From: Planctomycetota bacterium
GTDB lineage: Bacteria; Planctomycetota; Phycisphaerae; Phycisphaerales; SM1A02
Assembly: GCA_022574595.1 (NCBI GenBank)
Contig: JACZRS010000007.1
Location: 62,001-126,000, forward strand
DNA length: 64,000 nt
Direction of reading: 5' to 3'
Shown here: in pieces, positions 4,821-24,576 of the stretch
Numbering within the stretch: the first letter of the stretch is position 1
How the letters are laid out: the number at the start of each line of letters is the position of its first letter
Notes under the pieces: model-generated
Seen by the model: the letters and a program-made list of their open reading frames with translations, nothing else
Database searches by the model: none
Told to the model about the DNA's origin: nothing
Position numbers and translations under genes: made by a program

Positions 4821-6914
4821 TCAAAATAGCAAACGCTTCTGATCCGGTGTGCCGATGTCGGGATTCCGTTCTATTGCACTTACCAAGTGCGATGTCATTA
4901 ATTTCCCGTCCTTGCGCAATTTCTTGCAAGTTTTCATCACAAGTTGGAATGTACTTGGTCGAGCAGTTGCGAGTAAGAAGTGCTTCACATCCCATTGATT
5001 ATCGAGAAAAGTGTGTACGATCTTTCTTCTAAGTCGCTCGCACTTGTCCCAACTGGCGCTTCGTAGTCGAGGGAGAATCACATGCAACTTCTGCCAAGAC
5101 TCGTAAGGCAATCGATTATGGGCTAGCGCTTCGTGAACGGCATCAAATGATGTAGATACCAATTCAGCTGCCATGTCCTCAGTACTTTCGAAGCCAATAG
5201 TCAAGACGAACGCCATGACATCATTCAGATTTCGCTCATCCGCAACGCCAGACATAGACTGTCGACCCACATCGAGCCAACGTCCCAAGCCGAGCTTTTG
5301 AACCGATTTCTGTGTTGGGTCAAGTACTTTAGTCGCTAGAAACCACGCATGGTTGTTGACGGAAGACTCACTTCGAAGCCATCTCATGACCGCTTCTGAT
5401 TCACGTGATAGCGCCAATAAACAATCGTGATTGATCACATGCGACTCACTGCTTGCCGCTAGAGTTAGAATGGCGTCAACGGCTCTGCTCCCGAGTCTGT
5501 CCAAAATGTCAGAACAATACAACTCGGTACTCTCGATGATTGTGTTTACTACTTGAATCAACGTCTTTGCATCTATAGTGGCTTCAGCAATCATATCTAG
5601 CATTTCGAGTTGCACACTTCGTGAGGCACACCACAGCGCGGGTTCCTCTGCGATTCCTGGACACGCACGAAGTAGTGCGTATCTCAGATTCGGATTTGCA
5701 TCGATCACCATGACCATATCGTGTGCCGATAGATGCTTTACAAGATCTCCGAAGAGTTCCTCACCTACAATGTTGCGTTCTTCCTGGTCTAGCCACACCA
5801 GTAGGTCCAACGCACCACTCTTGCGCGTTGACCAAAGATTGTCGATGCGATCGCTAAGCCTCAGGTTCAAATTCTGGAACGAGTTAAAGTGGGGCGAGCT
5901 CGCTAGGTAGCGGAGAACCGCAACAGTGTCGAAAGCAACTCGTGACTGCGTCCCGTTTCCCAACACATAGCCCTTTAATGCTACGGCATCGTTCGGTGAA
6001 GGGAATCTTTCTGCAATTGAATCTAAAACATCGGCAGGGTCTGCATTTTCATACTCAACCTTTTCTAACAGTGCATACACTTGGGCAATAAACGGAAACA
6101 TTGATCGTTTGGCCGGGAAGTCGGCGCACGCGCTTCGCACGAAATCCCCGAATGTTGACAGCTGTGGATGAAGAGCGCCTTTAACTATGACTTCAGCCCA
6201 TTGATTATTGTATTCGACGAACTCAGCACGCGAATGCCTCTCGATCTGCAACTTTCCTTTACGTGTTGGTGCACCGTAAGGAACTATCTCAAGGTTGAAT
6301 TGAAAACCAGGTATATCTCGTGCCTCCAGTGCGCCAGTACAAAAACTAAATTGGTGCCGCAACGCATTCCATTGCATGTTCCAAAGACCAAAAACCAATT
6401 CTTCTAACTCTTTAGCACTTTGTGCCTCCACGCAGATGCTCTCTTCCGATTGATACAGCGCACGCACCAAATGTAGGCTCAACGGTGATACTACATTTTG
6501 CAAATCATCGGTCGCTCCTGTAATGCAATCTGGTGCAATATTCAGCCTCTTGCTGTAGGCTTGCTTTGATATAAGATCTTGCGATGGTCTATTAAAGGCT
6601 CGTCGAAGAATTCGCACATCATCGATTCGCTCCCACTGATCCAGTTTCACCAGTATTACATGGGTCCAAACACAGCCCGGTCGTTCCATTTCAATTGCAT
6701 ACCAAGTTTTGCAAAGCGCGTACATCTCTGATTCAGCTAGTGCGAAACCGCTGTAGTATTCTTCAAAGCCCGGTAAGAATGCATGCCCCGAAAAGTCACT
6801 TAGGATCGATAGCAATCGCTCGTCGGCCCGCGGCAGATCGAACGATGAATCGAGCAGACGATGTCCATCTGAGTAACCGAAAAGTGCCTGTTCAATGACA
6901 ACATCGGCATTCAT
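4821..6914 (-). CDS. GTPase-associated protein 1 (GAP1-N1 domain)
   Basis: A 697-residue protein whose first 230 residues match the GAP1-N1 pattern: QALFGYSDGHRLL near the start, SDFSGH, then TWYAIEMERPGCVWTH. That domain defines GTPase-associated protein 1 in predicted NTP-dependent conflict systems; the rest is a long helical region corresponding to the GAP1 middle and C-terminal parts. The start chosen is ATG at 6914, which has GGGGAG upstream and overlaps the preceding GTPase stop as ATGA; an ORF opening at 6950 ignores this. It is the last gene of a six-gene minus-strand operon. By analogy it would couple GTPase state to effector action, but no biochemistry is known to me. Confidence 0.85.
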   Translation of the reverse strand: MNADVVIEQALFGYSDGHRLLDSSFDLPRADERLLSILSDFSGHAFLPGFEEYYSGFALAESEMYALCKTWYAIEMERPGCVWTHVILVKLDQWERIDDVRILRRAFNRPSQDLISKQAYSKRLNIAPDCITGATDDLQNVVSPLSLHLVRALYQSEESICVEAQSAKELEELVFGLWNMQWNALRHQFSFCTGALEARDIPGFQFNLEIVPYGAPTRKGKLQIERHSRAEFVEYNNQWAEVIVKGALHPQLSTFGDFVRSACADFPAKRSMFPFIAQVYALLEKVEYENADPADVLDSIAERFPSPNDAVALKGYVLGNGTQSRVAFDTVAVLRYLASSPHFNSFQNLNLRLSDRIDNLWSTRKSGALDLLVWLDQEERNIVGEELFGDLVKHLSAHDMVMVIDANPNLRYALLRACPGIAEEPALWCASRSVQLEMLDMIAEATIDAKTLIQVVNTIIESTELYCSDILDRLGSRAVDAILTLAASSESHVINHDCLLALSRESEAVMRWLRSESSVNNHAWFLATKVLDPTQKSVQKLGLGRWLDVGRQSMSGVADERNLNDVMAFVLTIGFESTEDMAAELVSTSFDAVHEALAHNRLPYESWQKLHVILPRLRSASWDKCERLRRKIVHTFLDNQWDVKHFLLATARPSTFQLVMKTCKKLRKDGKLMTSHLVSAIERNPDIGTPDQKRLLF

Positions 6915-7798
6915 ATGGACTCCCCACCCCATGCTTCTTGAAGTAACCATCGGATCGGGCGAGTTATGTCATGATCCGTGAAGTCGTCGTCTGCAACCAG
7001 AATTCGTTCCCATGGATTGGCATGTGTCAGAAGTTCCGACTTCTTCGACTTGTAATCTCCCCCTTGTGCGCTAACTCCATAAACATGACGCCGATTCGAA
7101 TCAATGTTTGCAGTCAAATATTGATTTAACAGCGGTAATCGTTTTTTTAAATATATTGAGGCCGTGTCGAATTCGCTACAAAGGAGATCCCAGGCCGACA
7201 CTACTACTGCAACACGACATGCGCTAAACGCATCATCACGTCGTTTATTTAGAAATTGCAAGCACTCCACAAGTTGCACTTGTGTAGGCGCGAGGTTCGG
7301 AATCCATTGAACCACTTCCTCTTTAGTATTCTCATCACTTTTTGGTCCATCTCCATTTTGAACATCACCGCTTACGTAGATTTCTTCAGCAATTGTTGTT
7401 GGATCAATCACTTTCTCGGGGTGCACAAATAGAAGGAATCCGATCGCATTTTCTACGAGGTTGTCAAATTCGAGGCTCCATTGCCGTTCTGCCCAGTGAC
7501 TCATAAACGTCTCGCCCGACAAATCAGGAAACTCAAGTGTAACAACTCGACTAAAATCACTATCTGAGAGATTTATAGAGGTGCGTTCGATCCGCCCTAA
7601 TCTGGTGCGCGATTGACTCTCGCATTGAAGCCATGCTGCACCGATTTGGTTTAGATATTTACGGTCAGTCGGTAGTGCCTCTACACAGAGCGCTCCTTTC
7701 ACGGTCGATGAGAGTGCGTGTTGCCATAAACTGGCAAGGAATGTCGTTTTACCTGTTGCCGGAAATCCCAACGAAATAATTGTGCGTGGTGCGCTCAT
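6911..7798 (-). CDS. P-loop GTPase, DO-GTPase1-like
   Basis: A 295-residue P-loop NTPase. The Walker A/G1 loop is GFPATGKTTF at residues 11-20. A Walker B/G3-like segment is LEFPDLSGETF (about residue 88), and a G4-like SAWD (about residue 205) stands in for NKxD. This layout fits the double-GTPase family that accompanies GAP1 proteins. It starts two bases after the stop of the partner GTPase gene and ends in a four-base ATGA overlap with GAP1, so all three products are probably made in fixed proportion. The protein has no membrane segment. The family call is from motifs and context; nucleotide preference is not shown. Confidence 0.82.
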   Translation of the reverse strand: MSAPRTIISLGFPATGKTTFLASLWQHALSSTVKGALCVEALPTDRKYLNQIGAAWLQCESQSRTRLGRIERTSINLSDSDFSRVVTLEFPDLSGETFMSHWAERQWSLEFDNLVENAIGFLLFVHPEKVIDPTTIAEEIYVSGDVQNGDGPKSDENTKEEVVQWIPNLAPTQVQLVECLQFLNKRRDDAFSACRVAVVVSAWDLLCSEFDTASIYLKKRLPLLNQYLTANIDSNRRHVYGVSAQGGDYKSKKSELLTHANPWERILVADDDFTDHDITRPIRWLLQEAWGGESI

Positions 7799-7800
7799 TG

Positions 7801-8763
7801 CTATTCAAAAGCTTGCGGCAAGATTCGTTGAAAATACTTGTCGAACTCTCCAGTTATAGGGGGCATTTTTAGCTTACGGGATGGCTGGTTTTTGTCTAAG
7901 GGCGAATCTTCAATCCATGATGGAAGCACTCCATCGACACCGTCGGCTATATCACGCTTGTATTTTTCGTCGCGAGCAGCAATGCTGAAGAATCGCAATC
8001 GCCCTAACAGTTTCTCGAATGAATCACGAATCTCTCCCTCTATCATTTTTATGAAATCTTTGCATGCATCTCCAGTTCGTTCGATGACATCATCTTTTGT
8101 GAATAAGATGTCTACGAAAGACGACTTATCCAAATATTCGATCTGAATAAGGCTTAGAATCAGTAATTTCACGAATCGCCGCTCTTCCTGTCTTCGACTG
8201 ACATCGGCTAGTCGCGCACCATCGCTCAGCACGACGAAGTGGTCCGCAAATCGAATCAGAGACAGGGCGCGCGCGTCTTCTTCGGAATTGATCGCAGCCT
8301 GAAACTCTTCTCCAGACACATCAGACAACAGTAAATCTCGATGTGTATGTCCTTTGTTCTCCTTGCACACACGCAAGTGGAGGAATCTATGACTAACCGC
8401 ACGTGCAGTTCGTTCTGTTTTAGGCTCTAATCGATTGGATACAAGGCGGCTGTGATGACAAATGCGTTCGAAGCCGATGAGCGTGTCTGATCCGGCAAAC
8501 AGGTAGCCTGCAAAAGTGCCGTGATTGAATCGTTCGTAGATACTCGCAATCAGGGTGGTTTTTCCGCTGTCGCTTCTGCCACCAATAACAACGCGATTTG
8601 CTTGTAATCCAGAAGCAAACTCAGTTGCCTCTTTAGTCAGTAGTGACTCTCCTCTATGCAATTCAATGAAATCCTCTAGTGTGGCCGTATCAGTGGTAAC
8701 AGTGGCTTGAGGTGCGGTGGCGGAGGAATCGTCTGAAAATGTGCTGTCGGTCTCATTGGGCAT
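7801..8763 (-). CDS. P-loop GTPase, DO-GTPase2-like
   Basis: A 320-residue P-loop NTPase with G1 loop GGRSDSGKTT (about residues 61-70). It is followed by the segment FAGSDTLIGFERICH, which I associate with the second member of the double-GTPase pair. A DVSGEEF segment (about residue 160) is the G3 equivalent and FTKDD (about residue 233) the G4 equivalent. The N-terminal 45 residues are Ser/Thr/Ala-rich and probably disordered. The ATG overlaps the stop of the upstream gene by one base (TAATG). With its neighbour it forms the GTPase pair of the system, likely working as a heteromeric switch (inference). Confidence 0.82.
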   Translation of the reverse strand: MPNETDSTFSDDSSATAPQATVTTDTATLEDFIELHRGESLLTKEATEFASGLQANRVVIGGRSDSGKTTLIASIYERFNHGTFAGYLFAGSDTLIGFERICHHSRLVSNRLEPKTERTARAVSHRFLHLRVCKENKGHTHRDLLLSDVSGEEFQAAINSEEDARALSLIRFADHFVVLSDGARLADVSRRQEERRFVKLLILSLIQIEYLDKSSFVDILFTKDDVIERTGDACKDFIKMIEGEIRDSFEKLLGRLRFFSIAARDEKYKRDIADGVDGVLPSWIEDSPLDKNQPSRKLKMPPITGEFDKYFQRILPQAFE

Positions 8764-9830
8764 TAAATCGCCTCGTCCAAGAGTGAAGAGAGTAGCATTT
8801 CGTCATATGCTTGGCGTGCAAGGTCAAGCGGGCTTATGGTGGCGTTTTCGTCGATATGTATTGAAGCTGCGATCTCTTGCCATCTAGACGGGTCACGAGT
8901 AAGGACGATTTGCAGAACAGGAGTTAACATGCCCTGTGAATTCTTCAAATGCTCCTTCGTCGTATCGAACGGAAACTGATTCGCCAGATCTTTTATAGCA
9001 ATTGTCTTAGGCAGTTCGTCGGACAAATTATTGATCACTTGTGAAAGTAGTGCCGGCGCGGCAAACGGTCCGGGAGATTGGCGAACTAGTGATGCAAGTT
9101 CGAAGCCAGCAAGTGTACACGCCGAAGCTGTCTCAATATCAGAGAATGAACGCTCGAGCCATGTGCTGTGCTGGCCTATCATCCACCACAATGCATTGGA
9201 TTCCTCATCGCGTAGTAGATGTAATGCATCGGACTCGTTTTGTGTATCGATAATGAGTTTTAACTGAGTCTGAAATAATTGGAGTGCCTCTGATATAATC
9301 TTGCTTCGTTGAGTCTCATCAGTACCCGCTGCTAGCTTGGCAAGTTCTTCAATCTTGGGATTTGCCAATTGGCTGAGCTTGCGATCGGAATGCATCGTCG
9401 CGCGAATTGCAGCCGAAGTATTCGCAAGATACTGCGTTCCAATAACTACAAATGTTGGCGACAGTTTGGTACTGCGAAGCTCTGCGAACTCGGCGCATCT
9501 GAGAGAGAGAGCGCTCACAATCCGGCATGATTTATCCTTGTGGGACCTGATCATTTCAACTAGAATTGTACCCGCTATGACGGCTACCTCTTTGTCATTT
9601 CCCTTATTACGGAATGATGTGTCGGCTTTCCGAAACGTGTCACGAAAGCGCGACTCAAACGTAGCGTCGGCGGGCCATTGAAAAAGTAAACTCGCTAAAC
9701 CAGGAATATCTTTAAGCGACGCACTCTCGATGAATGCAGTGACGCCCTCCCATCTAAGATTCACAAGTTGATCGTCAAGATCGATCATTACTAGGCGTAG
9801 CCATTCGCCAAAATCTGGATGCATATTCAT
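8763..9830 (-). CDS. Helical component of the GAP1/double-GTPase operon, unknown function
   Basis: A 355-residue, almost wholly alpha-helical soluble protein with no recognised domain. Its composition (many short helices, evenly spaced Leu and Ala) suggests a HEAT-like or other helical-repeat scaffold. It is coupled on both sides: a four-base ATGA overlap with the small upstream ORF and a one-base TAATG overlap with the downstream GTPase. It is therefore an integral member of the module. A scaffold or adaptor role between GTPases and phosphoesterase is inferred from position only. Confidence 0.75.
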   Translation of the reverse strand: MNMHPDFGEWLRLVMIDLDDQLVNLRWEGVTAFIESASLKDIPGLASLLFQWPADATFESRFRDTFRKADTSFRNKGNDKEVAVIAGTILVEMIRSHKDKSCRIVSALSLRCAEFAELRSTKLSPTFVVIGTQYLANTSAAIRATMHSDRKLSQLANPKIEELAKLAAGTDETQRSKIISEALQLFQTQLKLIIDTQNESDALHLLRDEESNALWWMIGQHSTWLERSFSDIETASACTLAGFELASLVRQSPGPFAAPALLSQVINNLSDELPKTIAIKDLANQFPFDTTKEHLKNSQGMLTPVLQIVLTRDPSRWQEIAASIHIDENATISPLDLARQAYDEMLLSSLLDEAI

Positions 9831-13355: not shown

Positions 13356-13964
13356 TCAGTGTTCAGAGCCGTCAGACTCAAGCCAATCATGGAACAGCAT
13401 CTGTTGCTCTGTAGTTCGAGACCACTCTAGTACTACTATCCTTCGCACGTTGATTCGCTGGCAGATTCTGAGCAGCAGTGCATGCTCTTCTTGCTGCAGG
13501 ATCATGGATCTTTGCTTGGAGGCATCCCCCAGCAGTACTGGCAATTTGTAAACGAATGACTCATCTGGTGTGGCCGACCCTCTCAATAGCGGGCTGATGT
13601 CACCATGGATCACTTCTACTACCAGATGGCTTGGTGTTATCAAGCAGCAGCCCGCGTAATCGAATCTCCAGGACGGATAGACGACATAGTGGGAGACGTC
13701 AGGCCTGACTGATGCGAAAGTCTTGATGGTCCTGCGAACGCTGCGAAACGGAACATAGTGCTTAGCTGGCAACTCGAATGCGTACATCTTGCTCGGGCAC
13801 GACCTAACTGTCCATCCAAGCCGCGCTTCCGTCCATGGACTATGCGGCAAGTCTGTGACGCACTCGACGAATCTCCATTTCGGATGTGGTAATCGGTAAA
13901 GCTCAATGCGCCGGAGACCTTCATACTTGGACAAAACCGGATATTGTAGGTTGGACAGATCCAC
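13356..13964 (-). CDS. Unknown protein, last gene of the deaminase-fold/FAD/TIM-barrel operon
   Basis: A 202-residue alpha/beta protein. Features are YEGLRRIELYRLP near the N-terminus, LGWTVRSCPSK (about residue 49), HYVVYPSWRFDYAG (about 92) and LVVEVIHGDISPLL (about 113). The order of a vRS-like strand, a YPSWRFDYAG strand and a VEV.HGD segment is reminiscent of ATP-grasp or PEP-synthase-like nucleotide-binding proteins, but the match is too weak to name. The GTG start follows the upstream stop after one base (TGATGTG), so it is coupled to the TIM-barrel gene. It is the least explained member of this operon. Confidence 0.7.
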   Translation of the reverse strand: MDLSNLQYPVLSKYEGLRRIELYRLPHPKWRFVECVTDLPHSPWTEARLGWTVRSCPSKMYAFELPAKHYVPFRSVRRTIKTFASVRPDVSHYVVYPSWRFDYAGCCLITPSHLVVEVIHGDISPLLRGSATPDESFVYKLPVLLGDASKQRSMILQQEEHALLLRICQRINVRRIVVLEWSRTTEQQMLFHDWLESDGSEH

Positions 13965-13965
13965 A

Positions 13966-14904
13966 TCAACACGTCGCTTGCGCCGTGCTTATGCGCTGCC
14001 CGTTTGTAGACAACCAGTATTCTTTCATCAGCCTAGCCGCCACATCCTGCGAATCTTTCGCTTCGCAAACGATGAGCGGAGCAAGCTCTCTAGCCACTAT
14101 CTCTTCGATCAAAGGCTCGAATCTAGGCAAGAAATGTCTGGTAGCTGTACTGCGAGCACCGAATAGACCTAGCTGTTCATCTGTCTGTAGATCAGCGAAG
14201 GCACGATGCCGGATCTCTCCTTGTTTCCCCCACTCAATTGGACACATGTGAAAGTGCAAATGCCTAGCAATGAATGCTTCTTGGCCTAGCACTTTCTGCA
14301 ACTTGTCGAACACCACAGCGAAGTCGTCTCGACTGCGAAGTGATCCATGTGTCCGTGCATGAAGATGAGCAAAGTCGATACACGGCCATGCGCAATCAAC
14401 TTCCGCGCAGATCGCCAAGATATCATCTAATGACCCGAGTTGACGAATCTTACCCGCAACTTCAGGAAACAGTCGCACGTCATCAAGGTCACACTCTTGC
14501 TCAAATCGCTTCAGCGCGTCAATTGCACTGCGGACACCACTCTCGCGTGTACCTACGAACGTACCGGGGTGGAACACGATCCTGCGAGCGCCGAGTTTCT
14601 TTGCCAACCGCACACACTTGTGAAGTTCGTTCAGCGAGTTGTCGATCTTCTTCGGATCTGGCGTCCCGATTGAGATGTAGTACGGGCCATGAATGGAGAG
14701 TTCGACATTGTACCGCTCCGCGTTCCTCCTAAATTCCGCCGCGCGCTCGTCAGACATGCGTACACCGCGCGTGCATTGGAGTTCAAGCGCGTCTAACCCA
14801 ATGCTTCCCAGCCATTCGGGTGCATGAACCCTATCTGAGGAGTAGTCGGACGCCCAGAAATTCGGCGGATTGCCCGCCACGCCAAAGAGAGGGGAAGCAG
14901 TCAT
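13966..14904 (-). CDS. Endonuclease IV / xylose-isomerase-like TIM-barrel protein
   Basis: A 312-residue TIM barrel of AP-endonuclease family 2. Likely metal ligands are in place: His in SIHGPY (about residue 72), His in FHPGTF (about 112), Glu in LFPEVAGK (about 146), Asp and His in IDFAHLHAR (about 180-183), His in HFHMCP (about 217), His in GEIRHR and Glu in VCEAKDS near the end. Conservation of the full set suggests an active metal-dependent enzyme: AP endonuclease, 3'-repair nuclease or sugar isomerase. The start overlaps the FAD-protein stop by four bases (ATGA). Its presence in a mobile operon beside a deaminase-fold protein hints at processing of modified DNA or nucleotides, which is inference. 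Confidence 0.85.
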   Translation of the reverse strand: MTASPLFGVAGNPPNFWASDYSSDRVHAPEWLGSIGLDALELQCTRGVRMSDERAAEFRRNAERYNVELSIHGPYYISIGTPDPKKIDNSLNELHKCVRLAKKLGARRIVFHPGTFVGTRESGVRSAIDALKRFEQECDLDDVRLFPEVAGKIRQLGSLDDILAICAEVDCAWPCIDFAHLHARTHGSLRSRDDFAVVFDKLQKVLGQEAFIARHLHFHMCPIEWGKQGEIRHRAFADLQTDEQLGLFGARSTATRHFLPRFEPLIEEIVARELAPLIVCEAKDSQDVAARLMKEYWLSTNGQRISTAQATC

Positions 14905-16343
14905 GACCGCTGTACTCCCGCTTGGGCCAGCACTCCACGTGATACCGACGATGTTAGAGGCACGCCGGCTATCGCATGTGCTATGACAAGTCCGGAAAAC
15001 ATTGCCTGTACGTACCCACGTCCTAGACCAGCAAGATCACCTCCGATGAACACACCAGGCATGTCTGTCATGAGCGCTTCATCCAGAGGCACCGATCGCC
15101 AGAAATTGTCGATCACCGGCGCATAGACATAGCCAGTCGGATGAGAGAAGATGGCCCCACCACTCTCGTCGTTCAAGAGGCTCAGCAATGTGTCGATGCC
15201 CTCTCTGAGCGTGGCGCTCAACGCGTGATGGACATCGTACTCAATCGAGTTGAGCGCCGGCGGACACTCGGGCGACGGAATCGGAGCCGTATCTCGAGGT
15301 CGTCCCAGGAACAGATCGAGCTGCTGACGAAACGGACCCTTCTCGCGAGGATTGCGACAAGCGAAATGGCTCAATGCAAAGTCAACAGGATTGGAGCGCG
15401 CTGGCACCGGTAGTCGCCCAACGAGCGAAACGCTTGTGCGTTCGGTCCATCCTGTGCCGAAGTGACCGTCAACCATGCGAACGCCATCTAGGTGCGCGAC
15501 GGCCATCTGGCCACCTCTGCACCAACACAGTGTACGGAACTCCACATCTGAAAATGACGCCTTAAATTTCGGATCCTCCAAAGAGCCAGCAATGTTCTGG
15601 ACGAGAGACGCAGGCATCTCAAGTCTTACTCCAACGTCCACGTTCGCATGCCCGTGCGGCAGCCCGAGCGATTCAAGCGTAGACTCCAACCAACTGGCTC
15701 CAGAACGTCCTACGCAAAGCAAAACGGCCTTACGCACTATCACGGCCTTAGGAACGCCCTGGTGCGAGTAGATGACTCTGAATCCAGCCAAAGGATCGCT
15801 TCGCATGATCTGCGTGACGGACGCTCGCGTGATCACACGACCGCCAGAATCCTCGACTGACGAGATCAGGCCGGCCATCAGAGGACGCATCTCATCGGCT
15901 AGCAACGGTACGGCGCAATAGCGCTTCAGATGCATCGCTCCGACGTCTCTCAGTTGCGCGTGTTTAGGCAGACCGCACCGTAGTCTTAGGTCGTCGGCCA
16001 TGCCACACTGCTCGGCCTCCTTGATCAACTCGATCACGGCGGCGTTGGCGGCTTCACAGGCGTAACCTGTGTGATGGGCTAGTCTCTCTCCGGCAGGGAA
16101 GAAACAGAGGCTGCCGCCGACGATGCCCGCGACTCCGCCGACACCACTCACGAAGTCGCATTGACGACACGGCGGACATCGGTCCGTGGTTAGCTGGGGA
16201 CAAGTCCGCCGCGACAAGCTCTTGCCTTGCTCAAGAAGGAGGACAGACTGCTCAGTCAAGTGAAGCAGCCGATGCGCAGCCGCCAGACCGGCCGGACCGG
16301 CTCCAACAATAAGTACGTCGCACTGTTCACTCGGTCTTGGCAT
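14901..16343 (-). CDS. FAD-dependent dehydrogenase, COG2509-like
   Basis: A 480-residue flavoprotein with an N-terminal dinucleotide-binding motif (VLIVGAGPAGLAAA). A cysteine-rich insert follows (CPQLTTDRCPPCRQCDF, about residue 47), then a GGVAGIVGGSLCFF segment and a second nucleotide-contact region (LLCVGRSGASWL). These match uncharacterised FAD-dependent dehydrogenases related to HI0933 and geranylgeranyl reductases. The four-Cys insert could hold a metal. The start chosen is ATG at 16343, with GAAGG upstream and a 17-bp overlap of the preceding gene; an in-frame ATG at 16409 would overlap it by 83 bp. The substrate is unknown; the operon context points to nucleotide or isoprenoid chemistry, unresolved. 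Confidence 0.82.
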   Translation of the reverse strand: MPRPSEQCDVLIVGAGPAGLAAAHRLLHLTEQSVLLLEQGKSLSRRTCPQLTTDRCPPCRQCDFVSGVGGVAGIVGGSLCFFPAGERLAHHTGYACEAANAAVIELIKEAEQCGMADDLRLRCGLPKHAQLRDVGAMHLKRYCAVPLLADEMRPLMAGLISSVEDSGGRVITRASVTQIMRSDPLAGFRVIYSHQGVPKAVIVRKAVLLCVGRSGASWLESTLESLGLPHGHANVDVGVRLEMPASLVQNIAGSLEDPKFKASFSDVEFRTLCWCRGGQMAVAHLDGVRMVDGHFGTGWTERTSVSLVGRLPVPARSNPVDFALSHFACRNPREKGPFRQQLDLFLGRPRDTAPIPSPECPPALNSIEYDVHHALSATLREGIDTLLSLLNDESGGAIFSHPTGYVYAPVIDNFWRSVPLDEALMTDMPGVFIGGDLAGLGRGYVQAMFSGLVIAHAIAGVPLTSSVSRGVLAQAGVQRS

Positions 16344-17247
16344 TGGCTCGCTTACCTTCGCCAGGCTTCTTGACAGCATCGCCTTCCGGTGTCTCCTCCA
16401 TAGTGACACCTCTCAGACCTGCCTGAAAGAACGTTTGAATCTCATCTCTCAGTCCGACGAATGTCAGTGCGGCTATCACTATACCGATCAGGCTGATCCA
16501 TAGGACTACTCGGAGTCGCCGCTGCTCCCGCCGCAGGCCAAGAGCACGTTGGCAATCGTCGATTGCCGTCTGAAGGCCCTGAATTACGTTCTCCTTCTTC
16601 AGCCGCTCGAAATCCGCGCCGTGTGACTTCATAAAGTGCTCAAGATCAATGATCTTCTTCGGTTGAGCGCGATCCGGCGGCTCGCTTGTGAGGTGAAACT
16701 CGATGGTGAATATCGACTCCTCGTACGGGATGAACTTACCAGCGGCCGTAGTATTCAGCAGGATGCCGAACAGGGGGCCGTCGTACTCAGGCTCAACCTG
16801 TGGCCCGACTTGGAGGATGAACCCATCGAGCGCGTGCGCAATCTTGAGATCAAACCTGCCGACGATATTGTGCGGTGTGCGAACACGCTCGATGGTTGAC
16901 ACCAATGCAGTTCCGAATGGCTCGATTTCGATTCCCTTCACCCTGCCTTTCGCTGTGAGATCATGAAGTGCGAGCGTGCCTTTGCCGCACAAGAACGCAT
17001 CACGTCCTAGGCGCAAATCATAAGACGCTGCCTTTACACATTTGTCTAGCGGATTGTCTATCAGATTGTGAGCCAGAATCTGCGATCCGGTGAGTACTCC
17101 TCCGCGCGCTGCCCCATTGTCTTCCATCGTTACAGGATCACCAGTTTCAGGTGGTCCTGAAAAGCTATCTCCATCCTGTGGTACATCCGTGCCATTCATA
17201 GGTAATCTTTCTGGTCCATAGGCGTCCGATCGCTCGCAGTGTACCAT
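16327..17247 (-). CDS. Membrane-anchored dCTP deaminase/dUTPase-fold protein, probably non-catalytic
   Basis: A 306-residue protein. Residues about 50-190 match the DCD/dUTPase fold: AASYDLRLG, then RTPHNIVGRFDLKIAH and a PEYDGPLFGILLNTT strand pair. The Ser-Ser-x-x-Arg triphosphate-contact motif is replaced by FDLKIA, and the catalytic Glu of dCTP deaminases (LEFYN context) aligns with Ile in FGILLN, so deamination is unlikely. A coiled-coil (about 195-240) and one membrane helix (about 248-268) follow. It is first in the four-gene operon. ATG at 17199 is an alternative start. It may sense nucleotides at the membrane (inference). Confidence 0.78.
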   Translation of the reverse strand: MVHCERSDAYGPERLPMNGTDVPQDGDSFSGPPETGDPVTMEDNGAARGGVLTGSQILAHNLIDNPLDKCVKAASYDLRLGRDAFLCGKGTLALHDLTAKGRVKGIEIEPFGTALVSTIERVRTPHNIVGRFDLKIAHALDGFILQVGPQVEPEYDGPLFGILLNTTAAGKFIPYEESIFTIEFHLTSEPPDRAQPKKIIDLEHFMKSHGADFERLKKENVIQGLQTAIDDCQRALGLRREQRRLRVVLWISLIGIVIAALTFVGLRDEIQTFFQAGLRGVTMEETPEGDAVKKPGEGKRANAKTE

Positions 17248-21067: not shown

Positions 21068-24000
21068 TCACGGCGCATGGCGAGATTGCCCTGCATCGAT
21101 ATGCTTCAGAATCCGGTCAAGTTCGTCGGGATCCGGTGGATCGGACGACACGTCAATCGACCAAGCCTGTCCGAGGTTCGAAGCTGCGAGAAGTCTTGAC
21201 CCATCGGGCGTGAAAGCAAGACACCGGATCTCACCACCGCCATCGAGATGGTCGAACTTCGCAAGAAGTTCTCCACTCTCGACGCTCCACACGTTAATCG
21301 AGCAGCCTTCATCCCGGCTCGCAACGGCGATGATCACCCCATCTGGGTGAATCGCAAGCGCAGTGGGGGCCTTCATATTGACGCCAAACGAAATATCCCT
21401 AGGCGCACGAAAGACCGGATCGCCCAACGGTGGCGCAGATTCAGACATCGATATGCGTGGTTCGTTTGGTGCCGCGGTAGCCCATACCTTGACCGTACCG
21501 TCTTCACTAACCGAGACGAACTCCGCCCCACCGGGCAGAAAGTCAGCAAGGAGGACGGGCACAGGGCCGTGACGAACCTCAGCGACAGGAGTCACCGCAG
21601 CGTCATGCATCCAAACGCGGACAGTACCCTCGGCGCTCGCCGTAAGAAAGCGCCCCTCTTCCGCGGCAATTGCATGCACGAATCCCAAGTGTGGCTCTGG
21701 TGTAGACTCGACGTACGTCCCATCGGGCTCTCGCTGGATCTGCAGCAGCCGACCGTCAGAGCATCCGACGAGCACTTGCTCCGCAGCCTTGGTCATCGCC
21801 ACGCACACGGGCGGTGAGGATCCTAGATCCACTTCGTACACAACACGTCCGGTTGTAGCATTCCATAGCCCCACGTACCCAGGTCCAATCGCCAAGAAGA
21901 CGGCGCCGTTTTCGCTGAACTGCATCAACGTTGGCAAGAACATGAGTCCGAAAGACAGCCCAGGATACCCTTTGAGAGGCTCTAGGGAGCGCGTTTGATT
22001 GCGACCAGATTCCCAGAGTCTGATGTGACGATCGACACTCGCTACGGCCACTCTCCTGCCGTCTGCGCTCGCGGCAATGCATACAATTTGCTTGTCATCT
22101 GCTGGGAGGATACTACTGAGCTTACCGTCGTTGATGCTGACCGCAGCGATCGATTGATCATCGCTCACGGCTAACATTTCCTCATTCGCTGCTACGAGAG
22201 CGACTCTATTATAAGAATATGAAACCCGGGGGATGTGTTGCCGAACTACAGTTGGCTGTGAAAGATTGTCGATTGACCACAGCATAGCTGTGCTGTCAGC
22301 GCTCGCAGTGAGCATCTGTTCCCCCTTTTGATCGAACACGACATCGAGAACCTCATCCTTGTGGCCGCGCGCCTCTGCCACGAGCTGGCCGGTCACGACG
22401 TTGAAGACTTTGACCACTCGGTCGGCACCAGCACTCGCCAGTAGGGCTCCGTTATTACTGAACGCCAATGCTTTGATGGAGCTGCGATGTCCAGGGAACC
22501 GGTGAATGAGTTTGCCCGCATCGTTCCAGACGGCCACACTCATCGGACCGATTGAACCTGGAGTGTTTACAGAAAGTGCAAACGCACCGGTACTAGAGAA
22601 TGCAAGTGTAAGCTCGGGGTCCGTAACGACTGGCGTGGCGAGCGTAAGGTTGTCGTCGGGAACACTGAAGCTCAGTTCTCCTCCAGGCAGGGTGTACAGC
22701 TCTGCCCGCGTCTCAAAACGGATGGCGAGCCTCGAGCCATTGTCGTTGAAGCGCACTGCTTGCAATGGCTCATTGTTGTAGCTCATCTCACGAATCAGGG
22801 TGCACTCACCGAGATCCCACAGAGTAGCTCGACGAGGGTAATCGCCAGCTTCAAGTAGAACGATATACCGGCTGCCGGAGAATGATGGAGCAGGATACAC
22901 GATCGATTCGCTTGTGAACGGCCCAAGTCTGCCGTTATAACTTCCGTCGACGACGTTGTAGACTTGGTACTCGACCTGCCGGTCACTCGAACTCTCGGTA
23001 ATTCGGAGAACCAGATAGCCGTCGTCCCCCGAAAACCAAGCTCGGTCAATCGCCCGGCGTGGACTCGACGTTTCGATTATCTTGAGTTGGCTGCGATCGG
23101 CCGTATTCCAAAGATCGAGACGCGTGTTGTACCGAACAAACGCACGTGACCCATCTGCACTGATTGCGACTTGTTTAGGACGAAAAGTACCGTTTTCCAG
23201 AAAGTGCGGTTTTAGGTCTTCATCAAGCAGAAAGACGCGATGAGGTCGACGTGAAGATAAGCTGATGAGCTTTTCTCCTCGCAGGTCTACGGCCGCGATG
23301 GTCGCGCCAAAAACCGGCGAAGGGTCTGGCATGGCTACAGCTAAACGGTCACCCGAACCGCAATCCCACAGACTCGTGAGGCCATCGCGACCCAGGGTAA
23401 TCACTCGCTGATTATCGGACGCGAAGAAGACCCGTTCCACATCCTGCGTGTGACCCCGCAGCACCAACAGGCGCCCCTGAAGTGGAGTGATAGCTCTTGC
23501 GATGAGGAAATCGAGACTCACTGGAACGATTCCGAGTTGGTCCCGAATCGTTCTGGCTTCATCGAGCAAAGGGAGCGCCCGCTCCGGGTTGCGTTGGAGG
23601 AGGGCTTCGCGACCGTTCGCCTCGAGGCGCTCTGCGAGTCGGCCATACGACTCAATTCGGCGCTGCTCTGCCAGGACGCCGAAATAAACGGCGATCACAG
23701 CAACAATCATCATCACGACAGCCACGACAGACGCGATAGCTGCTTGTCTCCGGGCTCGGCGGCGGCGATCCCTGTACCAAAGCGGTTGGACGACACCAGC
23801 CGAAACACCCGACAGATCCGCCGCAAGCCTAGTCCTCTCATCGTCAGCGTCGCGGACCTTCACCCATGTTTTCCCATGCGTTCCCCGAAGACCGCGCAAG
23901 TCGTACCAGATTCTCCGGTGTAGCTCGGCATTGAGCACGGCGGGCGGGAATACGTCTTCAGGTGCTGTGGTCGGATTACGTCCATCCGACACTGCAACTA

Positions 24001-24361
24001 GTATCGCGTCAGGACCCCGATTCCGGAGGAACCACTCAACCTCGTCGTTTACCCATCGAGATGTGCGACCCTTTGGACAGCACATGACGAGAAGGCGTGT
24101 TGAGCGAGCAAGGTATTCCTCCACTTCCGCTGGAATCATCTGACGGGGTCCACGACCTGCTCCGCTGCCGCGAGTGAGAGAGAAATCGGAACCATCGACG
24201 CACACGCGAAGCCGTGGCAGACGCATGTCGTCCGGCGTCGGAAGCCTGTGAAAGGACTCGAGAAAACTCTCAAGACCGCGCACCAGGCGATAATCAGGAT
24301 CAGTAGAATAACTTATAAAGAGATCAAATTGTGGATTAGATTCAGCAACGTAATCCTGCAT
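21068..24361 (-). CDS. TIR-domain, transmembrane, WD40 beta-propeller protein
   Basis: A 1097-residue protein with three parts. A TIR-like domain (about residues 10-165) has the first strand QFDLFISYS, an RVCVDGSDFSL strand and WVNDEVEWFL. A basic stretch and one membrane helix (about 203-230) are followed by a helical ERALPLLDEA linker. Then come some 14 WD40 repeats (about 285-1085), readable from SADSTAMLWS, GADRVVKVFN and SEDGTVKVWA, probably two seven-bladed propellers. Bacterial TIR domains often cleave NAD+ or make signalling nucleotides; the propeller would sense the trigger. The ATG at 24361 is preferred over a TTG at 24373. The block is GC-rich compared with its flanks and is bracketed by a perfect direct repeat. 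Confidence 0.87.
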   Translation of the reverse strand: MQDYVAESNPQFDLFISYSTDPDYRLVRGLESFLESFHRLPTPDDMRLPRLRVCVDGSDFSLTRGSGAGRGPRQMIPAEVEEYLARSTRLLVMCCPKGRTSRWVNDEVEWFLRNRGPDAILVAVSDGRNPTTAPEDVFPPAVLNAELHRRIWYDLRGLRGTHGKTWVKVRDADDERTRLAADLSGVSAGVVQPLWYRDRRRRARRQAAIASVVAVVMMIVAVIAVYFGVLAEQRRIESYGRLAERLEANGREALLQRNPERALPLLDEARTIRDQLGIVPVSLDFLIARAITPLQGRLLVLRGHTQDVERVFFASDNQRVITLGRDGLTSLWDCGSGDRLAVAMPDPSPVFGATIAAVDLRGEKLISLSSRRPHRVFLLDEDLKPHFLENGTFRPKQVAISADGSRAFVRYNTRLDLWNTADRSQLKIIETSSPRRAIDRAWFSGDDGYLVLRITESSSDRQVEYQVYNVVDGSYNGRLGPFTSESIVYPAPSFSGSRYIVLLEAGDYPRRATLWDLGECTLIREMSYNNEPLQAVRFNDNGSRLAIRFETRAELYTLPGGELSFSVPDDNLTLATPVVTDPELTLAFSSTGAFALSVNTPGSIGPMSVAVWNDAGKLIHRFPGHRSSIKALAFSNNGALLASAGADRVVKVFNVVTGQLVAEARGHKDEVLDVVFDQKGEQMLTASADSTAMLWSIDNLSQPTVVRQHIPRVSYSYNRVALVAANEEMLAVSDDQSIAAVSINDGKLSSILPADDKQIVCIAASADGRRVAVASVDRHIRLWESGRNQTRSLEPLKGYPGLSFGLMFLPTLMQFSENGAVFLAIGPGYVGLWNATTGRVVYEVDLGSSPPVCVAMTKAAEQVLVGCSDGRLLQIQREPDGTYVESTPEPHLGFVHAIAAEEGRFLTASAEGTVRVWMHDAAVTPVAEVRHGPVPVLLADFLPGGAEFVSVSEDGTVKVWATAAPNEPRISMSESAPPLGDPVFRAPRDISFGVNMKAPTALAIHPDGVIIAVASRDEGCSINVWSVESGELLAKFDHLDGGGEIRCLAFTPDGSRLLAASNLGQAWSIDVSSDPPDPDELDRILKHIDAGQSRHAP

Positions 24362-24576
24362 ATTAACGCCCAAAAAGCAAAATAGGTTTGAGCACTTTAC
24401 GAGACAGATCGTAGCACACCAGACACCCTGGCTGAATCAATAATAGCGGCGATTTACAGCTCTTACCACATGCTAAAGAAAATCCCTCCTGTGCCTAACC
24501 TGGCATGGATTTTCGGAGCACCTCACAGCTGGAAATGCAGAGGATTCGACGGCCAGTGAAATGAATATGCACCTTC

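Follow-up and report, generated by a model that had tools for sequence, protein, structure and literature searches.

Defence systems that centre on nucleotides are by now a known kind, and they provide the background for the locus described here, a four-gene operon encoding a membrane protein of the DCD fold, a flavin adenine dinucleotide (FAD) enzyme, a TIM barrel resembling endonuclease IV, and an orphan protein. The operon lies in a stretch of 64,000 nucleotides from a Planctomycetota bacterium (contig JACZRS010000007.1, positions 62,001 to 126,000), the whole of which is referred to as the window. Single-gene systems of phage defence based on a dCTP deaminase or a dGTPase were reportedly described by Tal et al. 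in 2022, the deaminase in question not necessarily having the DCD fold. In the DefensePredictor study, systems composed of thymidylate synthase and 5-hydroxymethyluracil kinase are validated against phage, and further systems with MazG, aGPT-Pplase and dUTPase are predicted (PMC13092281); the dUTPase of a predicted system might belong to the same DCD family as the protein discussed below. In Clover (PMC12265719), the dGTPase CloA is responsive both to dTTP and to a nucleotide that its partner, CloB, produces. The operon would, on our reading, be a variant within this already known kind of defence, and not something categorically new. The reading that we favour, and hold as a tentative one, is that it is a divergent relative of a mobile, nucleotide-centred cassette pairing an FAD enzyme with a degenerate DCD protein, whose function would most likely be defence against phages or other mobile DNA.

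Compared with the dCTP deaminase/DCD-dUTPase family (TIGR02274, PF22769), the DCD protein of the window shares the fold, with Z scores of 15-21 to solved members, but lacks the triphosphate motif and the deaminase glutamate, carries an added membrane helix, and lies under the TIGR02274 cut-off. It has in common with the Tal et al. systems a nucleotide enzyme fold in a defence-type setting, but differs from them in having no PADLOC match and in the loss of its catalytic residues. The thymidylate synthase, deoxynucleoside monophosphate (dNMP) kinase and 5-hydroxymethyldeoxyuridine (5-hmdU) DNA kinase systems (PMC13092281) are approached through other members of the DCD family, which adjoin such genes and MazG, whereas the operon itself encodes none of these three enzymes (outside it, the scan covered part of the window). 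The likeness to Clover consists of the HD dNTPase-type protein of the sister cassettes and the logic of sensing the nucleotide pool, but the window has no recognised nucleotidyltransferase gene and no HD gene. Endonuclease IV (Nfo) shares a TIM barrel with Nfo-like metal-ligand residues, but the window protein misses the curated cut-off and is nearer to an unnamed TIM-barrel family of phylum genomes and two plasmid records. As the initial annotation had surmised, the gene set has no name that we could find: the four operon proteins gave only a weak match in PADLOC-DB 2.0.0 (typeIV_Cas7, E 0.03), and neither this gene set nor that of the sister cassette is named in the openly licensed literature searched, outside which lies the survey of Burroughs et al. 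2015 (PMC4678834), which possibly covers membrane DCD proteins.

The product of the first gene is confirmed as a genuine DCD/dUTPase fold that is catalytically degenerate and membrane-tethered. It scores 36.6 bits against the Pfam DCD model PF22769 (cut-off 27) and 40.9 against 92.8 bits in the TIGR02274 equivalog test, in which it stays below the cut-off. A structure model built from 27 sequences has a predicted local distance difference test (pLDDT) score of 83-98, in blocks of ten, over residues 51-190, and superposes on the Thermococcus dUTPase 8y1w with a Z score of 20.8 and 1.4 Å over 142 aligned residues; alignment with solved dCTP deaminases, a check proposed in the initial annotation, gives Z scores of 15-20 and supports the fold. 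The triphosphate motif, which we take to be of the RSSxxR type and whose position was read off the conventional DCD of the same genome, is KSTYAR in that copy and KIAHAL (K135 I136 A137 H138 A139 L140) in the window protein, while the deaminase catalytic glutamate aligns with Ile162; the annotated absence of both features is thus borne out. The tether that had also been proposed corresponds to a predicted hydrophobic helix at residues 247-265 (mean hydropathy 2.6), modelled as a helix at 242-279 with a pLDDT there of about 70-85. Since the host encodes a conventional DCD, a dUTPase and a 390-residue protein with two DCD matches elsewhere in its genome, the window protein is an extra copy. Searched against plasmids and phages, it had no match.

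The second line of evidence comes from the relatives of this protein. A nine-row clade (support 96/98, the bootstrap not being fully settled) groups the window DCD with seven guanylate kinase::DCD fusions and one PurA-DCD locus. The seven kinase-fused loci belong to Bradyrhizobium retamae, Dyadobacter, Rhodoblastus acidophilus, ANME-1, Methanophagales, a Heimdallarchaeota contig and an IMG/VR contig; the Heimdallarchaeota contig may be mis-binned, because the three archaeal DCD copies are near-identical. The guanylate kinase domain was scanned in one of these proteins (L044) and aligns in the others, the gene being split into two open reading frames (ORFs) in L058. Profiles constructed from five of these loci place an HD gene and an N6/N4 DNA methyltransferase in all seven. 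An FAD gene is present in six, as against none of the 47 other DCD loci (Fisher p 2.7e-7), among which over 4 kb of flanking sequence is available on each side for 26, and on one side or more for 43; the seventh contig, without FAD, begins inside the HD gene. The kinase-fused loci are not independent, and about five separate occurrences is the safer count, a degraded Rhizobium copy standing outside the seven. With the window FAD alone as query, blastp (E≤0.01) matched 5 of 48 DCD neighbourhoods, all from the clade of the window DCD (L058, 7e-30; L055, 1e-25; L044, 1e-19; L046, 1e-8; L042, 9e-5 over 53 residues); the FAD of L092 was added by profile, and the FAD, HD and methyltransferase profiles draw on sequences from the set itself. 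The FAD family is found at E≤1e-15 in 2 of 246 phylum genomes (the host and one other) and yet overlaps, in the window, a DCD gene whose clade has FAD, which argues that the pairing goes beyond chance.

In same-strand copies of the cassette, the order is FAD, HD, methyltransferase and kinase-DCD, with ORFs that mostly overlap or nearly abut; Rhodoblastus departs from this, its DCD gene being transcribed divergently from the rest, and has an additional FAD gene, of a different type, nearby. The HD protein of Dyadobacter matches the phosphohydrolase 2q14 (1.8e-13) and SAMHD1 (2e-6), and falls just under the cut-off of the Pfam HD model. The degraded copy lies on plasmid pA of Rhizobium etli, beside a PNP_UDP_1-domain protein, and the ANME copy adjoins AbiE genes. 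The cassette of L042, L044, L055, L058 and L092, which spans archaea, bacteria and a viral contig, is a candidate for an unnamed defence system in its own right. An FAD profile run against viral contigs yielded nothing confirmed, whereas DCD- and HD-based scans did find a viral copy; HD matches on plasmids of Natrinema and Bacteroides had no FAD or DCD profile match beside them, and further plasmid HD matches fell in Phocaeicola and Prevotella. It is also of note that viral contig L131 (6016-12154) carries HD, methyltransferase, P-loop kinase-like and second methyltransferase genes without FAD or DCD, possibly with a PP-loop gene, by weak matches, in their place.

The window shares with this cassette the DCD clade, a homologous FAD enzyme in the cluster and a membrane helix. 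It differs in possessing the TIM barrel and the orphan and in lacking HD, methyltransferase and kinase, as well as in gene order: the DCD gene comes first in the window and adjoins FAD, whereas FAD comes first in the cassette and two genes separate it from DCD. The prospect, raised in the initial annotation, that the four families travel together holds in part: relatives of the DCD and FAD proteins do share a cluster, in 6 of the 7 kinase-fused loci and in none of the other 47, but a TIM profile found nothing at the 54 DCD loci, the loci of TIM relatives have neither FAD nor DCD, and no convincing homologue of the orphan appeared in the collections tried.

A number of observations weigh against the favoured reading. 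Within the tree, the window FAD joins the cassette enzymes at only 72/80 and sits on a long branch of 2.43. The sequence most identical to it (27%) is a Kitasatospora FAD that lacks an accompanying DCD, and by path length a Bacillaceae plasmid FAD comes closest. The window DCD is nearest, by path and by identity (38%), to the helix-less L087 and L043 and not to the fusions, and in an approximately unbiased (AU) test a clade uniting the window DCD with the seven fusions is neither rejected nor established (p 0.248). L018, a member of the window clade, has no helix above threshold, and the L046 ORF stops before any helix. HD and methyltransferase profiles found no match at E≤1 among window ORFs of at least 40 residues, and the operon is without the kinase part of the cassette. 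The sister methyltransferases also match generic type II methyltransferase profiles, so that they could derive from restriction-modification. Finally, the nearest solved relatives of the window DCD, 8y1w and 9ln0, are dUTPases with methionine at the deaminase glutamate site; loss of the glutamate alone is therefore no proof of enzymatic death, and the case for inactivity, as judged from the alignment, is carried by the loss of the triphosphate motif.

The wider family offers further indications as to what such a protein might do. One short conserved pattern was used to scan the genomes of 84,980 species, confirming 45 relatives among 122 candidates, and the set is therefore a sample and not a census; two scans of viral contigs found 2 and 8 DCD relatives, with one contig common to both. 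After removal of duplicate loci and of ORFs under 150 residues (such as L071), the sample comprises 54 loci besides the window; one L058 fragment was further excluded from the helix count, and L080 and L086 from the tree. The deaminase glutamate is present in only 1 of 57 aligned rows, that row being the conventional DCD control, and a C-terminal hydrophobic helix in 45 of 56. In a helix-less clade (L043, L045, L053 and L087), the three members scanned have a C-terminal end resembling a winged helix-turn-helix (HTH), of which only that of L045 exceeds the Pfam cut-off (HTH_24, 3.1e-5); these proteins are possible nucleotide-responsive regulators. Such varied ends on one fold fit a receptor better than an enzyme, although it must be added, on the opposing side, that scans of the helix-less L057 and L064 gave no known output domain.

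The neighbours of the family are also informative. Another large DCD clade adjoins MazG-type genes (8 of 48 loci) and HMUDK_hel-type genes (6 of 48), and thymidylate synthase and thymidylate kinase stand beside DCD at one locus. At the planctomycete locus L018/L066, a PurA-like gene with a GSEGKG motif lies directly upstream of a DCD of the window clade, the contig ending just past DCD; its product carries Ser at the position of an Asp in archaeal PurA, a substitution shared by a phage PurA-like enzyme, yet its closest solved relatives are archaeal PurA (1.4e-59), with PurZ far behind (4e-21). Within the host phylum, the DCD profile matches 17 of 274 genomes, nine through its DCD part (the host included) and eight through its kinase part; at the eight DCD-part loci other than the host's own, whose flanks are mostly about 1.5 kb, no FAD was found, the host locus being the only one with it.

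These features are best read as those of a receptor, because the DCD shape is kept while the catalytic residues are lost, the C-terminal ends differ, and nucleotide enzymes surround the gene. The DCD domain would bind a (deoxy)nucleotide, or a modified one, without hydrolysing it, and binding could be signalled through the helical stalk to the membrane helix, while the flavoenzyme would make or remove the sensed nucleotide. Deoxynucleotides and DNA would be the targets of the HD protein, methyltransferase and guanylate kinase in the larger cassettes; in the window, the presumably metal-dependent TIM barrel may supply the hydrolytic step. Support comes from partners across the family that are enzymes of nucleotides (SAMHD1-like HD, guanylate kinase, PurA-like, thymidylate synthase and kinase, MazG and HMUDK_hel) and from a context of conflict: DO-GTPase, GAP1 and GASH genes with integrases in the island, AbiE by the ANME copy, and PNP_UDP_1 by the Rhizobium copy. 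The validation of thymidylate synthase/5-hmdU-kinase systems against phage (PMC13092281) also speaks for it, and Clover offers a precedent for defence by nucleotide sensing (PMC12265719).

Many of the same partners can be read in another way, namely as a cassette for hypermodification of DNA bases, in which a modified nucleotide destined for DNA would be produced by the flavoenzyme and its partners, while the unmodified one would be scavenged by the membrane-bound DCD protein. The methyltransferase and nucleotide kinase of the sister cassettes, the serine variant of the PurA-like protein directly upstream of a clade member, and the adjacency of HMUDK_hel, MazG and thymidylate synthase to further members of the family would all suit it. 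We nevertheless regard it as unlikely, albeit the strongest of the alternatives: the phosphate-binding residues are gone from the DCD pocket, the window operon has no kinase or synthase, and the winged-HTH-like ends of one sister clade would be odd for a scavenger.

The FAD enzyme and TIM barrel bear on a second alternative. Plasmid homologues of the window FAD are named NAD(FAD)-utilizing dehydrogenase or FAD-dependent protein. In actinobacterial plasmid clusters (L037, L038 and L039), an FAD enzyme lies with a glutamyl-tRNA-reductase-like gene (by eye), a nucleotidyltransferase and two radical-SAM genes, with gltX on the opposite strand nearby; these clusters look like an unknown biosynthetic pathway. 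In the TIM barrel, H72, H112, E148, D177, H180, H219, E230, H233 and E281 are invariant in all nine aligned sequences, the window included, in agreement with the earlier impression that the metal ligands are kept; these are residues of ligand type, and we take them to correspond to the Nfo ligands from Nfo numbering together with PDB alignments that end at residue 226. The Asp-x-His pair of Nfo reads Glu-x-x-His in the window protein, which scores 62.3 against 129.65 bits on the curated Nfo model TIGR00587, and so misses its cut-off, and is 40-41% identical to TIM barrels of two other phylum genomes. Relatives occur in nine other genomes of 294 and in two plasmid records, at loci without FAD or DCD within the 4-24 kb examined. 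A scan of the genome-contig collection, aimed at near relatives only, confirmed none (this collection was not scanned with the orphan or FAD), and the TIM barrel was rejected as a travelling partner, with no homologue at the 54 DCD loci and no viral relative confirmed. The Klebsiella pneumoniae 'plasmid' NZ_CP061967.1, with a spermidine-synthase-like gene among others, is by eye a probable contamination from another organism.

Accessory metabolism would make the TIM barrel a sugar or cofactor isomerase and the FAD enzyme a biosynthetic dehydrogenase, DCD being merely joined to them. The TIM relatives do sit among housekeeping-looking genes (by eye), and related FAD enzymes occur in the actinobacterial clusters with nucleotidyltransferase and radical-SAM genes, the window FAD being slightly more identical to one of them than to the cassette enzymes. 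However, the DCD-FAD linkage recurs together with methyltransferase and HD genes, and few genomes of the phylum have this FAD family, which makes this explanation improbable.

The layout of the operon in turn bears on whether the four genes belong together at all (Table 1). All are minus-strand ORFs that overlap or abut, so that the four coupled genes of the initial annotation are recovered: DCD and FAD overlap by 17 bp, given an FAD start at ATG 16343 (the longest FAD ORF begins at GTG 16409), FAD and TIM overlap by 4 bp, and between the TIM stop and the orphan's GTG lies a single base. GC content at third codon positions (GC3) is 58.1% in the orphan, 55.6% in TIM, 59.9% in FAD and 57.0% in DCD; three host genes lie at 36.2-41.2% and six further genes of the island at 39.9-50.8%, a contrast that agrees with the GC-rich block noted at the outset. 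As its codon-position pattern matches theirs, the orphan is probably a real gene that arrived with its partners. It has no match in Pfam, PHROG or PDB (Pfam and PDB up to E 10); two NCBIfam matches, far under the cut-off (13.8 against 460 bits), and a weak match in G272 (E 0.0085, three internal stops) were discounted. The idea of a PEP-synthase/ATP-grasp-like fragment, based on a motif seen by eye, was dropped since the PPDK_N profile did not reach the orphan, and its single-sequence model is useless (pLDDT 36.8).

Table 1. Features of the four-gene operon, in positions of the window.
Feature	Coordinates	Strand	Basis
DCD-fold membrane protein, 306 aa, first gene of the operon	16327..17247	minus	PF22769, 6.2e-9
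DCD-fold domain, residues about 50-195	16663..17100	minus	alignment to the genome's own conventional DCD
Single C-terminal hydrophobic helix, residues 247-265, beyond a helical stalk at 202-235	16453..16509	minus	hydropathy, model
FAD enzyme, 480 aa	14901..16343	minus	FAD_binding_2, 2.1e-9; plasmid homologues; cluster with DCD at 6 other loci
TIM-barrel, endonuclease-IV-like metalloenzyme, 312 aa	13966..14904	minus	PF01261 (AP_endonuc_2), 1.3e-27
Orphan without known family, 202 aa	13356..13964	minus	codon-position composition as in operon mates

Chance assembly, in which the four genes would be co-transcribed island cargo with no common function, is suggested by a four-gene set seen once, by the absence of recurring partners for TIM and orphan at the loci examined, and by the weak tie between the window FAD and the cassette enzymes; the three tight junctions, the common GC3 and the DCD-FAD linkage within the clade of the window DCD itself render it a slightly more remote prospect than accessory metabolism. 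Least probable is a role in DNA repair and nucleotide house-cleaning, with TIM as an apurinic/apyrimidinic endonuclease, DCD as a dUTPase-like sanitiser and FAD as a reductase of oxidative damage, for which speak the endonuclease IV models as best curated TIM matches, the ligand-type residues kept and the dUTPases as nearest solved DCD relatives, but against which stand the lost DCD active site, the DCD, dUTPase and two-DCD-match protein that the host already owns, a TIM barrel below the Nfo cut-off, and the location in a mobile island.

That island, of which the operon is part, begins at a tRNA-Val (2047-2120) and contains an integrase gene as well as another ORF with an integrase domain. Consecutive GAP1-N1, DO-GTPase1, DO-GTPase2 and GASH genes (4821-9830) within it make up a conflict system of the GTPase-associated type. 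A gene at 21068-24373 resembles the operon in GC3 (57.2%) and encodes a protein of 1101 residues with WD40 repeats, whose N-terminus appears TIR-like by eye, a resemblance unconfirmed among the best 25 of 42 families.

Returning to the favoured reading of a receptor within a defence cassette, its broadest form is that the DCD/dUTPase fold serves in bacteria, archaea and viruses alike as a general nucleotide receptor with plug-in outputs, either a membrane helix or a DNA-binding domain, and that the FAD-linked cassettes, the window operon among them, make up a new, membrane-acting immune class that senses a nucleotide made or erased by the flavoenzyme. This generalisation is doubtful as yet, but if it is true, the surveillance of nucleotide pools would gain a new type of sensor, a DCD-fold membrane receptor, and the presence of dead DCD proteins beside nucleotide-modifying genes in islands would be explained. 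The FAD-HD-methyltransferase-kinase::DCD cassette provides a concrete candidate immune system open to testing, distributed from methanotrophic archaea to Bacteroidota.

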